Origin: Gammaproteobacteria bacterium
GTDB lineage: Bacteria; Pseudomonadota; Gammaproteobacteria; Nitrosococcales; Methylophagaceae
NCBI GenBank assembly: GCA_029248745.1
Contig: JAQWIT010000013.1
Coordinates: 124,001-188,000 of the forward strand
Length of the DNA: 64,000 nucleotides
Direction: 5' to 3'
The notes beneath the pieces were generated by a model, which saw only the letters and a program-made list of their open reading frames with translations, was not told the DNA's origin and made no database searches. The translations under genes were made by a program, and so were the position numbers. Of this stretch, positions 7,536 through 15,467 are shown piece after piece (position 1 is the stretch's first letter; each line of letters starts with the position of its first letter).

Positions 7536-8948
7536 TTAAAGTGTTTCGGAGGCGTAGTCAGCTAGACGGGATCTTTCTCCTCTCAATAGGGTGATATGAC
7601 CGCTGTGTGGCCATTTTTTAAAGCGATCAACAACATAGGTGAGACCGGAAGTGGTTTCACTGAGATAAGGTGTGTCTATTTGGGCAGTATTGCCTAGGCA
7701 GACAATTTTTGTACCGGGCCCAGCTCGAGTAATGAGTGTTTTCATTTGTTTGGAGGTAAGGTTTTGCGCTTCATCTATGATGATAAAACGATTGAGGAAC
7801 GTTCGACCTCGCATGAAATTAAGAGATCGTATCTTTATCCAGCGGTTTAGAAGGTCATTGGTTGCCTGGCGTCCCCAATCATCAACATCAGTTTGGTTGA
7901 GTACTTCTAGATTATCCATTAAGGCGCCCATCCAGGGTGTCATTTTTTCTTCTTCTGTACCCGGTAGGAAACCGATATCTTCACCAACGGGGACGGTGAC
8001 ACGTGTCATGATGATTTCAGAATATTGTTTTTGTTCTGTTGTTTGAGCCAGTGCGGCAGCTAGAGTAAGTAGTGTTTTACCTGTGCCAGCTTGGCCGAGT
8101 AAGGTGACGAAATCAACATTGGGATCCATCAGTAAATTAAGCGCGAAGTTTTGTTCACGGTTTCTGGCGTTAATACCCCAAACGGCTTGGTTATCTTTGC
8201 GATAATCGGTGAGGATTTCAATATCTGCTGTCGATTCATCATGATTACGAACGACGGCTTCAATGGTGCTTTCTTCGCCAGGTGAGTGGATGAGCTGATT
8301 AGGGTGCCAGTTTTTGACGATGTCACCAGTGACTTTGTAAAAAGTTTGGCCTTCATGAGTCCATGATTCGAGATGTTTGAGGTTTTCCCAGAAATCAGCC
8401 GGTAGTTCACCAGAGCCTATATAGAGCAAGTCGACATCGTCGAGTACTTTGTCGTTGTAATAGTCCTCAGCATGAATGCCTAGAATAGAGGCTTTGATGC
8501 GTAAATTAATATCTTTGGACACAAGGGTGACAGTGGTGTTAGGCTGCATTTCCTGTAAGCCAATGGCAATCGCTAAGATGGCATTATCAGCTTGTAAGCC
8601 GGGTAAGTCTTTGGGAAGGGTATGTTCAACTTCGGTGGTTTGAAAAAAGAGCTTTCCTGTCGCTTTGTGTTGTTCATCTTGGTTTTCAACACTTGGTAAT
8701 GAGAGTCCAGCTGACATCATTTCTTCATGGGTGGCTTGTAACATGAGGTCGTCTAAAAAACGACTGACTTGCCTGACATTACGAGAGACTTCAGATAGCC
8801 CTTTTTTGCCGCGATCGAGTTCTTCTAAAACAACCATAGGTAGGAAAATATCATGTTCATCAAAACGAAAAAGTGCGGTCGGGTCATGCATTAAAACGTT
8901 AGTATCAAGGACGAAGAGTCTTTTCCCCGAGATGGCTTTCTTGATCAT
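7536..8948 (-). CDS. PIN domain plus PhoH-type ATPase
   Basis: The 470-residue protein joins an N-terminal PIN ribonuclease domain (VLDTNVLMHD, Asp15; LEELDRGKKG) to a C-terminal PhoH-family ATPase with Walker A GQAGTGKT (residues 285-292) and Walker B FIIIDEAQN. This PhoH2/YlaK-type architecture is linked to RNA unwinding and cleavage. The name PhoH reflects homology only; phosphate control is not shown. An AAGGA element lies about 12 bases before the ATG. The gene heads the minus-strand group phoH-pilZ-gst. Confidence 0.9.
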   Translation of the reverse strand: MIKKAISGKRLFVLDTNVLMHDPTALFRFDEHDIFLPMVVLEELDRGKKGLSEVSRNVRQVSRFLDDLMLQATHEEMMSAGLSLPSVENQDEQHKATGKLFFQTTEVEHTLPKDLPGLQADNAILAIAIGLQEMQPNTTVTLVSKDINLRIKASILGIHAEDYYNDKVLDDVDLLYIGSGELPADFWENLKHLESWTHEGQTFYKVTGDIVKNWHPNQLIHSPGEESTIEAVVRNHDESTADIEILTDYRKDNQAVWGINARNREQNFALNLLMDPNVDFVTLLGQAGTGKTLLTLAAALAQTTEQKQYSEIIMTRVTVPVGEDIGFLPGTEEEKMTPWMGALMDNLEVLNQTDVDDWGRQATNDLLNRWIKIRSLNFMRGRTFLNRFIIIDEAQNLTSKQMKTLITRAGPGTKIVCLGNTAQIDTPYLSETTSGLTYVVDRFKKWPHSGHITLLRGERSRLADYASETL

Positions 8949-9067
8949 AAGCGGTTATATCCTTAGGTTGATTTATCAAGTCGTGATTTGATTATGGTCT
9001 ATGTTTTAAGGTGAGGGAAGGGGAAAATAAGGCTTTTTTCATGGATGGATTTAGGGATTATTCTGTC

Positions 9068-9076
9068 TGTTATAAT
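9068..9076 (+). promoter_or_regulatory. Extended -10 promoter candidate
   Basis: The bases read TGtTATAAT, a perfect consensus -10 with the TGn extension. No good -35 lies 16-18 bases upstream, which extended -10 promoters do not require. It would start a transcript near 9083, about 285 bases before slyX: either a long leader or a separate small RNA. Confidence 0.4.
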
Positions 9077-9200
9077 TAGAGATTAACCTATCAACAAACT
9101 GCGTAAGTGATGGCTATTGTGAGTCTGTCATTGCGCTTTTGTTGGTCAAACCCTAAGCAGTTCATGCGGCAGTATATTTTTCTTCTCAGTGCTTAATTGT

Positions 9201-9229
9201 TTGACAATAATACGGTGTGATTTTATCAG
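9201..9229 (+). promoter_or_regulatory. Sigma-70 promoter candidate for slyX-tmcA
   Basis: A consensus -35 TTGACA (9201-9206) is followed after 17 bases by TATCAG (9224-9229), a moderate -10. Spacing is ideal. It would give a leader of about 130 bases before slyX. Confidence 0.45.
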
Positions 9230-9366
9230 TAAGCGTTTTTAAAGTGTGCGCTGTTTCAATTGGTGTTTGGGTCAAAAAAAGAAAGAGAACGTGATGGTTG
9301 CTGGCGAGATTATGTCTGTCTGGCGATAGCAAAGATCTATGTTGTAGTGTTGAATGAGGAAAGTGA

Positions 9367-9579
9367 ATGAGCGGTGTGGATAGTGCAATTATAGATTTGC
9401 AAACAAAATTATCATTTCAAGATGGTTTATTAGAAGAGCTAAACCAGGTCGTGACTGAACAACAACACCAGATAATGCGAATGGAATCGGCATTGGAGGC
9501 GTTACGTGTACAGGTGAAGACATTACAAACTGATAATCGGTCTGGTGAGGCTAAAGAGCCGCTACCGCCTCATTATTAA
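9367..9579 (+). CDS. slyX: SlyX family coiled-coil protein
   Basis: This 70-residue acidic protein is almost wholly one predicted coiled coil (LQTKLSFQDGLLEELNQVV), ending in the typical PLPPHY tail of SlyX. The biochemical role of SlyX is unknown. A GAGGAAAG ribosome site stands just before the ATG. It lies 11 bases upstream of tmcA and is probably co-transcribed with it. Confidence 0.85.
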   Translation: MSGVDSAIIDLQTKLSFQDGLLEELNQVVTEQQHQIMRMESALEALRVQVKTLQTDNRSGEAKEPLPPHY

Positions 9580-9590
9580 TAGAACTATTC

Positions 9591-11636
9591 ATGCAACAAC
9601 GACAGTGTGTTGTTTTAACTGGTGATCGTGCTTGGTGTGAACAGGCAACAGAGACGTTATTGCCTGCTTTTAATTCTGAACGACTATTGTGTTTATCAGA
9701 TCGGCCGGTTGGTCATTTCCCAACGCTAAGGTTAAAGCAGGCTAAGCATCAGTTAGGCAAAGAGTTTGAAGCGATTGTTTTTGATGGCTTAGATACGTTG
9801 CTGCCCGATAATATGGGGCAGAGTGTGGGTACGTTGTGTGCTGGCGGTGTCTTTATTCTCTGGTTTGTTGTTGATAGGAACAGTTTATATTCACAGCGTT
9901 TTGAACAGGTCATCAGGCAATTTGAATCACCATTGCATTATGTTAAACAAGGCGATGCATTACCCCATTTGAATTTGTTGGATCAAGCATCAGAGGTCAC
10001 CATTTCTCGTACTACAGAACAGACTGAAGCGATTAAGTTAATTGGTAAAGTTGTCACGGGTCATCGTCGTCGGCCTCTGGTTTTATCAGCGGATCGTGGA
10101 CGTGGCAAGTCAGCTGCTTTGGGTATGGCTGCTGCAGAACTATTGATGGTAGGTCTAAAGAAAATTATTGTGACAGCGCCTAATATGATGGCTGTCGATT
10201 CTGTATTTAGTCATGCTGCTTCAGTTTTAGGATGTGCTAAACCAGCTAATGGCAAAATTGACTATGAAGGGGCAACATTAAAATTTATTGCCCCAGATGC
10301 TTTATTGGCGAGTGATGATACTGCTGATTTATTATTGGTTGATGAGGCAGCGGCGATTCCAAGTACGATGTTGGCACGTTTATTACAACGTTTCAGTCGA
10401 CTTGTGTTTGCGACGACATTGCATGGCTATGAAGGGACAGGGAGAGGGTTTGCTATTCGCTTTCAGGCTTTGTTAGAGCAACAAGTGCCAGGCTGGCGAC
10501 ATTACGAGTTGTCTGAGCCTGTTCGTTGGCGCCAAGATGATGTGCTCGAGGCATTCAGCTTCGAGGCTTTGTTATTAAATGCTGAGCCTGTCGAAGAGCG
10601 TTTGATTTTAAATGCAGATGTTAGGCAATGTACGGTTGAACGGATAGATAAAGGCGTGCTTACCAATGATGAATTGTTATTACGTCAGTTGTTTGGTCTG
10701 ATGGTGTTAGCACATTACCGAACGAAGCCCTCAGATTTACAATTATTATTGGATAATGATGATATTTATTGCTATGTCACACGCTACAAGGGACATGTTC
10801 TAGCTTGTGCTTGGGTGGTGGAAGAAGGCTTGTTACCGCCTGAGTTGGCTAGCGCAGTTTATCTTGGTCAACGCCGCTTGAAAGGACATTTATTACCTCA
10901 ATCTTTATTGGCGCATATGGGGATAGAATCTGCTGGCGGTTTGGGCTATAGAAGGATACTCAGAATTGCGACTCATCCGATAGTGCAAAGGCAAGGGGCG
11001 GCAAAAGCCTTATTGGAGGCTGTTTATGCCGATGCTAAATCTGAGCAGATTGATGTAATTGGCACTAGCTTTGCTGCCGATCTTGAGGTGATGTCATTTT
11101 GGGAATCCTGTGGCTTTGATGTTGTTAGACTGGGCACTCAGCACGATGAGATCAGTGGTCAACGTGCAGTGACATTATTGCGTGCTTGTTCTACAGTCGG
11201 TGGTGGACTCCATGTAGATGCAACAATACGATTTGAACAACAATGGCCCGACTTGTTGATGATGCAGTTTAATCAAGTTGATGTTGATCTTATTTTAGCA
11301 CTTTCTAAGCGCTTGAGATCGAAAGGTAGTGTGTTAGCTAATTGGGAGCGCCAAGATGTTTTTCGTTTTGTTGATGGTGCCGCGACATTTGAATCATGTC
11401 AGCTAGCAATACGAAAACTAGTTTCGATGGCTTTGGGCCAGCCTCATTTTCTAGAGTTGCCAACATCAGAACAGCGATTATTAATCATGTTTATTATGCA
11501 GTTAAGATCCGTTTCTGTTGTGACCCGTGCTTTGGGTTTCACAGGAAAATCAGATTTAATGTCTGTTTTGCGCCGGGTGGTGCGAGGTTTAGTTGCGTTC
11601 CCGTCGGAAGATAATCTTATTGTCACCACGAAATAA
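9591..11636 (+). CDS. tmcA: tRNA(Met) cytidine acetyltransferase TmcA
   Basis: TmcA acetylates the wobble cytidine of elongator tRNA-Met using acetyl-CoA and ATP. The 681-residue product has the family order: an N-terminal alpha/beta region, a RecD-like ATPase with P-loop ADRGRGKSAAL (about 168-177) and Walker B LLLVDEAAAIPS, then a GNAT domain with RILRIATHPIVQRQGAAKAL, and a tRNA-binding tail. Length is close to the E. coli enzyme. The last few codons lie over the edge of a minus-strand LamG remnant, so the extreme C-terminus (VTTK) may have been altered by a past deletion. Confidence 0.95.
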   Translation: MQQRQCVVLTGDRAWCEQATETLLPAFNSERLLCLSDRPVGHFPTLRLKQAKHQLGKEFEAIVFDGLDTLLPDNMGQSVGTLCAGGVFILWFVVDRNSLYSQRFEQVIRQFESPLHYVKQGDALPHLNLLDQASEVTISRTTEQTEAIKLIGKVVTGHRRRPLVLSADRGRGKSAALGMAAAELLMVGLKKIIVTAPNMMAVDSVFSHAASVLGCAKPANGKIDYEGATLKFIAPDALLASDDTADLLLVDEAAAIPSTMLARLLQRFSRLVFATTLHGYEGTGRGFAIRFQALLEQQVPGWRHYELSEPVRWRQDDVLEAFSFEALLLNAEPVEERLILNADVRQCTVERIDKGVLTNDELLLRQLFGLMVLAHYRTKPSDLQLLLDNDDIYCYVTRYKGHVLACAWVVEEGLLPPELASAVYLGQRRLKGHLLPQSLLAHMGIESAGGLGYRRILRIATHPIVQRQGAAKALLEAVYADAKSEQIDVIGTSFAADLEVMSFWESCGFDVVRLGTQHDEISGQRAVTLLRACSTVGGGLHVDATIRFEQQWPDLLMMQFNQVDVDLILALSKRLRSKGSVLANWERQDVFRFVDGAATFESCQLAIRKLVSMALGQPHFLELPTSEQRLLIMFIMQLRSVSVVTRALGFTGKSDLMSVLRRVVRGLVAFPSEDNLIVTTK

Positions 11637-12027
11637 GCCAAAGCTGGCGCGGCTTTGTGCTTCACCATTAATGATATCGACCAGCCAATTGCTGCGATGC
11701 CGGAATCAGAGCCCCATGTACCCGTGTATGTGCCACTGGCTTCTAGATCGCAGTTCACATAGATAAAGCGTTGTTTAGTGTTACTGTTGTGGACAGTGGT
11801 TACGAAGTACCAATTATCATCTTGTGGAACGACTTTATTTTTAGTGTCGAGACTAACAGGGCGGACTCCTCTCGAGTAAAAACGTAATCTGCCAGAACCA
11901 GAGTCGTTTGGACTTAAGGCATAGCATTTGCTGTTATTGTCATCATCAACAAAAATCCTAGCCCACGTCTAGCAGTTGTTGACTTCACCCATACAGACAC
12001 CGTAAAACTGTCAGTTAAATTTTGCAT
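11628..12027 (-). pseudogene. LamG-domain remnant, possibly mshQ
   Basis: On the minus strand, three successive frames give pieces of one LamG/concanavalin-like lectin domain. The first reads LTDSFTVSVWVKSTT; the second reads YALSPNDSGSGRLRFYSRG, then DNWYFVTTVHN and YVNCDLEASGTYTG; the third reads WLVDIINGEAQSRASFGLF near 11640. The order and spacing match LamG, for example the RIYVDGxLxASG and INGEAQSRASFG elements. At least two frameshifts separate the pieces. It directly abuts the mshE remnant, and MSHA loci usually contain mshQ, whose product carries such a domain, so mshQ is a reasonable inference. No start or complete protein remains. Confidence 0.65.
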
Positions 12028-12598
12028 CTTCGAAAATAGCTTGGAGTAATTTTACAACCGGCGCGTCAGTGGTATTTGTCGTTTGGGTGAGGGCTTGTAA
12101 GTCGAAATCTGTTTAGGAGAGTTCATCATCTAGCACTTCAGCAAGATTATCGATTTGCTCTGTTTTTCGGTAATCGGTATCTAATTGATGAAATAGAACA
12201 CTTTCGCTGATTGCTGCGACTTCGATAGGGTGATTGAGTACTTTGTGGATTTCATCATAAGCGGAAATATCACTAGGATCGGCCATGCCTACTAGGATCT
12301 TACTATTTTCCTCAGCTAAAGCGATAGCGCGGAATCGGCGAGCGCGAATTTCAGGCAGTTTTCGGAGAATGTCATGTTTTATGGGCTATTGCTTGAAGCT
12401 GATATAAGAAATACCCAGTTGTTCTGAGATGAGTTGTAACAGTGCTGATTCTTCAACATAACCAAGATCAACAAGTGCTTTACCTAACTTCCGTCGTGTT
12501 TTTTTCTGTTCAGCGAGGGCAACTTCTAGTTCTTGTTCTGAAATTAGCTTATTCTCGATGAGAAGGTCACCAATTCGAATTCGCTTTTTTATGTCCAT
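12011..12598 (-). pseudogene. mshE: MSHA pilus assembly ATPase MshE, N-terminal remnant
   Basis: MshE is the extension ATPase of the mannose-sensitive haemagglutinin type IV pilus. The first 70 residues are a clean GspE/MshE N-domain (IRIGDLLIENKLISEQELE, LGKALVDLGYVEESALLQL). After a stop at 12386, the same frame continues with MshE-like sequence: RRFRAIALAEENSKILVGMA, DPSDISAYDEI, LDTDYRKTEQIDNLAEVL. A second stop is at 12113-12115. The frame then reads DFDLQAL and DAPVVKLLQAIFEDA before ending at 12011. The whole ATPase core with its Walker motifs is missing and the sequence passes directly into the LamG remnant, so a deletion has joined two genes. The N-domain alone might still be translated. 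Confidence 0.85.
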
Positions 12599-12673: not shown

Positions 12674-13021
12674 TTAAATTACTTTTAACCAAATTTTGTC
12701 GTCTTCATCACACTCTATTGTCAAAGGTGTGAGCTGGTCGCCATTACAGGGACCCATAATGCATTGGCCGTCTGCGAAATTAAATAGCGCACCATGGGTT
12801 GAACATTGAATATGGGTATTTTCGATGGATAAAAAGTCATCAGGTTGCCAGTTGAGCGGAATGCCGAGATGTGGGCATCGATTTTGATAGCAATAAAGCT
12901 GATTGTCATGACGAATAAGGACAACTGAACTGATGTCATGCAGTGTATTTATGTCAATATCGAAACCACGGGGTTGATTTTCGATAATGTCATGTTGATG
13001 GCAAAGGAAATAGGATTGCAT
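12674..13021 (-). CDS. Rieske [2Fe-2S] ferredoxin-like protein
   Basis: A 115-residue soluble protein with both Rieske cluster motifs: Cys49-Pro-His51 in CPHLGI and Cys73-Ser-Thr-His76 in CSTHGALF. There is no signal peptide, so it is cytoplasmic, as in NirD-like or dioxygenase-type ferredoxins. The electron partner is unknown. It starts 4 bases after the PfkB kinase gene and likely shares its transcript. In related bacteria a similar gene often sits close to sppA and the HAD phosphatase, as it nearly does here. Confidence 0.87.
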   Translation of the reverse strand: MQSYFLCHQHDIIENQPRGFDIDINTLHDISSVVLIRHDNQLYCYQNRCPHLGIPLNWQPDDFLSIENTHIQCSTHGALFNFADGQCIMGPCNGDQLTPLTIECDEDDKIWLKVI

Positions 13022-14616: not shown

Positions 14617-15467
14617 TTAGGCTGTCGTAAGCACGGATGTAAGGTCATCAACTTTATCGTTTACTTGTTGCATGATATCAGGCAATTGCTGTTCGTCTAA
14701 TTTGAGTTCGTTCGAAGCTGGTGGATCGAGTCTTGGTCGATGGCGATCGCCAGGGTGTCCGAATACGCCTGCAGCGGTCACCATCACATCAGATAAGTGA
14801 ACAATCGCAGTTTCTATTGGGAACAATTCTGCTTGTGATGGTGTGTGGTTGTGACGAATGGTTTCTGTCAATGCAGCCGGTAAGCGCGAGCTTTTAGCTA
14901 AAGCTTCTCCAACCTGGGTGTGGTCGAAACCTAAAAGTCTTTGTTCTGACTCTTCTAACGTTTCACTACCAAAGAGTGAACTGGTTATCGTTTCTTTGGC
15001 TAATTCTGGAACGATTTGGTACATCACCAGGCTGCCGATGTTTTGGAGTAGGCCTGCAATAAAAAATTGTTCTGCGGCGGGCATTTTACATTTCTTGGCG
15101 ATGATACTGGCTTGATGGCACAAGCAATACTGTGGAGCCAAAAGTCTTCCATTTTGATTAGGTCTTCAGGGATGCCTTTGAATGCTTTAATGACTGAGGT
15201 GGCTAATACCAGTTGATTGAGTTCACTGGTGCCGACAATAGTGATAACACGTGAAATAGTACTGATTTGTGATGGGAAGCCATAATAAGGGCTGTTCACA
15301 ATTTTAAGTAAGTGGGTGGTTAGCGCGGGATCGGTATTAGTGACTTGAGTGATATCTACCGCCGATGCGTTATCATCATGAATTGGCTCATTAAGCTGAC
15401 TGTAAGTAGCGGGTGGGGAAACCAGCGCTAGTGGTTTATTGAACAGTGCGTCTGCAGTAAAAGCCAT
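14617..15467 (-). pseudogene. HDOD-domain signalling protein, frameshifted
   Basis: HDOD proteins are regulatory relatives of HD phosphohydrolases, often tied to c-di-GMP and chemotaxis signalling. The first frame (start 15467) reads LLKIVNSPYYGFPSQISTIS and MEDFWLHSIACAI, classic HDOD motifs. The same protein continues in another frame as ASIIAKKCKMPAAEQFFIAG, LLQNIGSLVMYQ and ends at 14617. A single-base indel around 15115-15130 separates them; the total length of 851 bases is not a multiple of three. It could be real decay or a sequence error, but the small gene just upstream is also shifted. Confidence 0.8.

Follow-up and report, generated by a model that had tools for sequence, protein, structure and literature searches.

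Remnants of an MSHA pilus operon between tmcA and a Rieske gene in a Methylophagaceae genome, and related losses in its genus

What does it mean when the beginning of one pilus gene abuts a piece of another, with the genes expected between them gone? The question is raised by a gammaproteobacterium of the family Methylophagaceae (GenBank assembly GCA_029248745.1), in a window of 64,000 nucleotides (the whole stretch of DNA that was analysed; contig JAQWIT010000013.1, positions 124,001 to 188,000). Here, a truncated mshE lies next to a LamG-domain fragment. We argue that this arrangement is almost certainly the scar of an MSHA operon that was lost by at least two deletions, as part of a total loss of type IV pili that is recent relative to the split from the nearest relative. 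The argument is built on the remnants themselves, on intact syntenic operons in relatives, on the machinery missing elsewhere in the genome and on parallel scars in the genus.

Remnant genes and their junctions

Both flanking genes are intact. Downstream lies tmcA (9591..11636, plus strand), recognized by its Pfam TmcA domains and its conserved position, and upstream a gene for a Rieske [2Fe-2S] protein (12674..13021, minus strand; Pfam PF00355, 82% identity to the protein of the congener G012). Between them, the minus strand carries mshE codons 1-192 (12023..12598), which are 88.5% identical to the intact G012 MshE by tblastn (E 2e-102). The reading begins at a start codon at 12598 and ends with codon 192 in ...LLQAIFEDA (VVKLLQAIFEDA), and it is interrupted by two nonsense codons, TAG at codon 71 (TAT in G012) and TAA at codon 162 (GAC in G012). 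With its end at codon 192 of 578 and its two stops, the window gene is not a complete MshE extension ATPase; the Walker-containing ATPase core is missing, and what is left is the predicted MshEN c-di-GMP-binding region, matched by an NCBIfam c-di-GMP motif model at 66.8 bits (stops entered as X).

The next piece is a LamG-domain remnant of mshQ (11678..12021, minus strand), which begins in another frame at about 12020 (NLTDSFTVSVWVKSTTARRG, 12021-11962) and, past a frame change near 11965, reverts to the frame in which mshE started, up to about 11678. It scores 32.1 bits with Pfam LamG (PF13385), over the cut-off (E 1.2e-7), with one stop inside. Its identity to the LamG domains embedded in the MshQ open reading frames of three congeners (G016, G031 and G033) is 66-70%, which bears out the assignment to mshQ made in the first-pass annotation; the break of the mshE frame at IFEDA and the change of frame at about 12020 were read there in the same way. 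That annotation had overlooked both the genome-wide pilus loss and a third remnant, the C-terminal tail of mshQ (11589..11688, minus strand), which consists of the last ~30 codons (NGEAQSRASFGLFRGDNKIIFRRE), ends in a stop at 11589 and is 80% identical to residues 550-579 of G012 MshQ (E 1.35e-9). The tail and the 3' end of tmcA share 48 nt, and the overlap has the same length in G012 and G003. The match of the window to MshE, LamG and the mshQ tail is far beyond chance.

The two junctions were examined by DNA comparison with relatives. Junction 1 (12018..12024, minus strand) connects mshE codon 192 to the LamG region out of frame, and when compared with G012 mshE (GAAGATGCTGTC) and G031 mshQ (CCCAATTTAACGGAC) it has 0-3 bp of common sequence at most. 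Short direct repeats at 12010-12030 had been suggested as mediators of the deletion, but none is detectable there beyond this possible overlap of 0-3 bp. At junction 2 (11685..11688, minus strand), where the LamG piece meets the mshQ tail and DUF6701 is deleted, comparison with the LamG end and the MshQ tail of relatives suggests TTGG on both sides.

The joining of mshE to a LamG gene described in the first pass is real, but a functional MshE-LamG fusion gene is ruled out because the halves sit in different frames and carry stops. The locus is a pseudogene remnant, predicted to be untranslatable and to yield no working product, and annotators should be warned that its short MshE and LamG open reading frames are not genes.

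Elsewhere in the window, an HDOD-domain gene (14617-15467, minus strand) is read in two overlapping frames, apparently through a 1-nt deletion near 15105-15111; the corresponding gene is unbroken in G012 and others.

The operon in relatives and the course of its loss

Among the congeners compared, which are Methylophaga-like or Piscirickettsiaceae MAGs, genomes of the same genus carry at exactly the window site a plus-strand tmcA followed, on the minus strand, by mshQ, mshP, mshO, mshD, mshC, mshA, mshG, mshE and the Rieske gene; the names mshA, C, D, O and P come from gene order and N-terminal methylation motifs rather than from per-gene orthology tests. Carriers of this intact cluster include G012, G008, G005, G016 and G031, and the window keeps MshE 1-192, the MshQ LamG and the MshQ tail in the ancestral order, all on the minus strand. 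The earlier proposal that a whole MSHA operon once lay between the mshE and LamG points, to be checked against the gene order of an intact relative, is thereby borne out. The MshQ of relatives contains DUF6701, and that of G016, G031 and G033 has LamG as well, in the order LamG, DUF6701, tail.

How, then, was the operon lost? An MSHA-type type IV pilus operon, mshE-G-A-C-D-O-P-Q, once filled the space between tmcA and the Rieske gene, and the missing segment runs from the 3' part of mshE through mshG, mshA, mshC, mshD, mshO and mshP to the 5' part of mshQ. One deletion would have brought codon 192 of mshE up against the LamG region of mshQ, and another would have removed the remainder of mshQ, sparing the last ~30 codons. 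The single large deletion first envisaged does not account for the order mshE, LamG, mshQ tail; at least two are needed, since the DUF6701 that relatives carry between LamG and the tail has also disappeared. The tail has probably been kept through its overlap with the end of tmcA, which is under selection. The decay itself may reflect relaxed selection, possibly with a shift in lifestyle toward less surface attachment.

As a limit on this account, the mshE remnant is still 89.5% identical to G012, a value as high as that of adenylate kinase, and dS is saturated, so timing rests on a relative-rate count in place of dN/dS dating, and no absolute date is given. The mshE remnant has 12 lineage-specific replacements in the window against 3 in G012 (small numbers), whereas unique changes in flanking genes are even (window/G012: Rieske 4/5, PfkB 18/23, TmcA 57/52). 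This pattern fits a recent release from constraint that affected only mshE.

Pilus and flagellar genes in the host genome

The host assembly comprises 1.73 Mb in 20 contigs and is 99.99% complete; statements about the whole genome are drawn from family searches and from selected stretches. No match was found anywhere in it for the platform protein family PF00482 (T2SSF), the secretin family PF00263 or the pilin family PF07963 (N_methyl), and the host is the only one of 20 genomes without a match in the N_methyl and T2SSF searches. The platform protein MshG, pilins and secretin of a functional MSHA system are thus lacking genome-wide. DUF6701 was likewise not found, and the sole MshEN match is the window remnant, so that the MshEN, T2SSF, secretin, N_methyl and DUF6701 searches reveal no intact MSHA copy elsewhere in the host. 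A flagellin gene, present in most congeners, was not found in the host genome either.

Other pilus loci have collapsed as well, and those for pilM-Q and pilB-C have the same first-gene/last-gene scar as the msh locus. At pilMNOPQ, pilM codons 26-149 (with 2 stops) are joined to pilQ 683-715, while at pilB-C, pilB codons 1-49 are joined in frame to codons 960-1019 (the last 60) of a GGDEF-EAL gene; pilC has been lost from this locus, and pilD is intact. The host mshI is broken by 2 stops and its neighbours mshJ/K are gone; both PilT/PilU-like copies are broken. The msh collapse is one part of a total type IV pilus loss in a flagellin-less genome.

Several details of these loci deserve separate mention. 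The pilB junction leaves an open frame at 9206-9532 of stretch L195 (G000:C1:76001-94000), a deletion product in which the 49 N-terminal codons of PilB run in frame into the last 60 of the GGDEF-EAL protein. In the same stretch, the prepilin peptidase gene pilD (8293-9153) is intact, with 289 codons, although neither a prepilin nor a secretin nor a platform protein can be recognised in the genome. Its product is thus an orphan enzyme; either its substrates were lost very recently or it has another role. In the pilM-Q neighbourhood, the gene after a 365-codon gene (stretch L185 of G000:C12, 12029-12691 and 13057-13356) is broken by stops and gaps; its relative in G004 (L188_15051) has 485 codons.

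Parallel losses, rival readings and known systems

Three other genomes carry msh scars. In G003, mshE codon ~75 is joined to mshQ past LamG, and at its pilB-C locus pilC 136 is joined to EAL gene 847. In G009, mshE codon 11 is joined out of frame to the second half of DUF6701, and G015 retains fragments of mshE, a mshA pilin gene and the mshQ tail. In G004, G010, G011, G013, G014 and G018, tmcA adjoins the Rieske gene, and the intergenic gaps of these six and of L106 and L111 hold no convincing msh remnants. Sister pairs differ in operon state (L113/L128, L105/L112 and L145/L117), and parsimony on the tree needs 9 changes of state. The four scarred genomes (window, G003, G009 and G015) are certainly losses. 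Some of the clean absences could be ancestral, since in several species of Methylophaga proper tmcA adjoins the Rieske gene without MSHA between them. On balance, type IV pilus operons of the genus probably collapse repeatedly and in parallel, each collapse leaving a first-gene::last-gene scar with breakpoints of its own, and the genus would therefore display in nature the successive stages of a pilus loss linked to a shift in lifestyle.

The G003 junction is also an open frame in its own right: MshE(1-75)::MshQ, at the edge of a contig (L034, 8527-10089), reads in frame for 520 codons or more before a frameshift within MshQ.

The state of Methylophaga proper might suggest that LamG comes from some unrelated gene that is at home at this site, with the mshE sequence no more than a stray fragment, the outcome that would have undone the first-pass reading. 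This is extremely improbable, because LamG is 66-70% identical to a domain embedded in the site-matched MshQ of three congeners, which rules out an unrelated native gene, and because the MshQ tail comes next in the right order and orientation. Could the junctions instead be an assembly or sequencing artefact that joined two contigs? The assembly is a draft of 20 contigs, but the mshE stops are substitutions rather than homopolymer indels, the collapse extends to four pilus loci on separate stretches, the entire machinery is absent from a nearly complete genome and congeners have similar independent scars; an artefact is thus very improbable. We give equally little credence to the idea that the remaining 70-codon MshEN product is still made and would bind c-di-GMP: its frame (12386-12598) is open and the motif model does match, yet it stops at codon 71, within MshEN, and mshE carries an excess of replacements in the window lineage.

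A somewhat more serious proposal, though an unlikely one, is that the window and G003 scars descend from one ancestral mshE::mshQ deletion, later widened in each lineage. The window, G003 and G012 do form one clade (support 100), in which the (G003, G012) grouping has an SH-aLRT of only 70. Nevertheless, G012 is intact, the breakpoints differ both at mshE-Q (codon 192 in the window, about 75 in G003) and at pilB-C (pilB 49 and pilC 136, respectively), and each of the two genomes retains parts that are absent from the other. Separate losses remain the preferred reading.

The window locus is a case of ordinary gene decay but a clear one of repeated loss, and its modest significance comes from that parallel loss rather than from the fusion. 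Within a single genus the pilus operon can be compared in its intact, half-deleted and erased states, always with the same two neighbours on either side, and these genomes offer independent replicates for asking why marine methylotrophs lose surface attachment. Within the open literature searched, no paper was found that deals with this locus in Methylophagaceae.

The relatives' operon resembles the MSHA type IVa pilus operon of Vibrio cholerae and Shewanella in its order E-G-A-C-D-O-P-Q and in an MshQ that bears DUF6701, and the intact MshE of G012 has a match, at E 6e-25, to the N-domain of V. cholerae MshE, whose structure is solved (MshE structure 5HTL). It differs in that mshI-type genes of the genus lie at a locus separate from the mshE-Q cluster, and in the window only pieces of its two end genes, mshE and mshQ, survive. 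Planktonic (pelagic) Methylophilaceae, in which adaptive loss of flagella and type IV pili accompanies genome streamlining (PMC6794327), are likewise methylotrophs shedding both structures during genome reduction; that family, however, belongs to the Betaproteobacteria, while the decay in the window is caught midway, with its scars still readable. In Shewanella evolved in the zebrafish gut, mutations in the msh operon recur (PMC7439477), so that there too the operon is hit repeatedly in independent lineages, but those are laboratory-selected mutations in one strain rather than large operon deletions that distinguish species.
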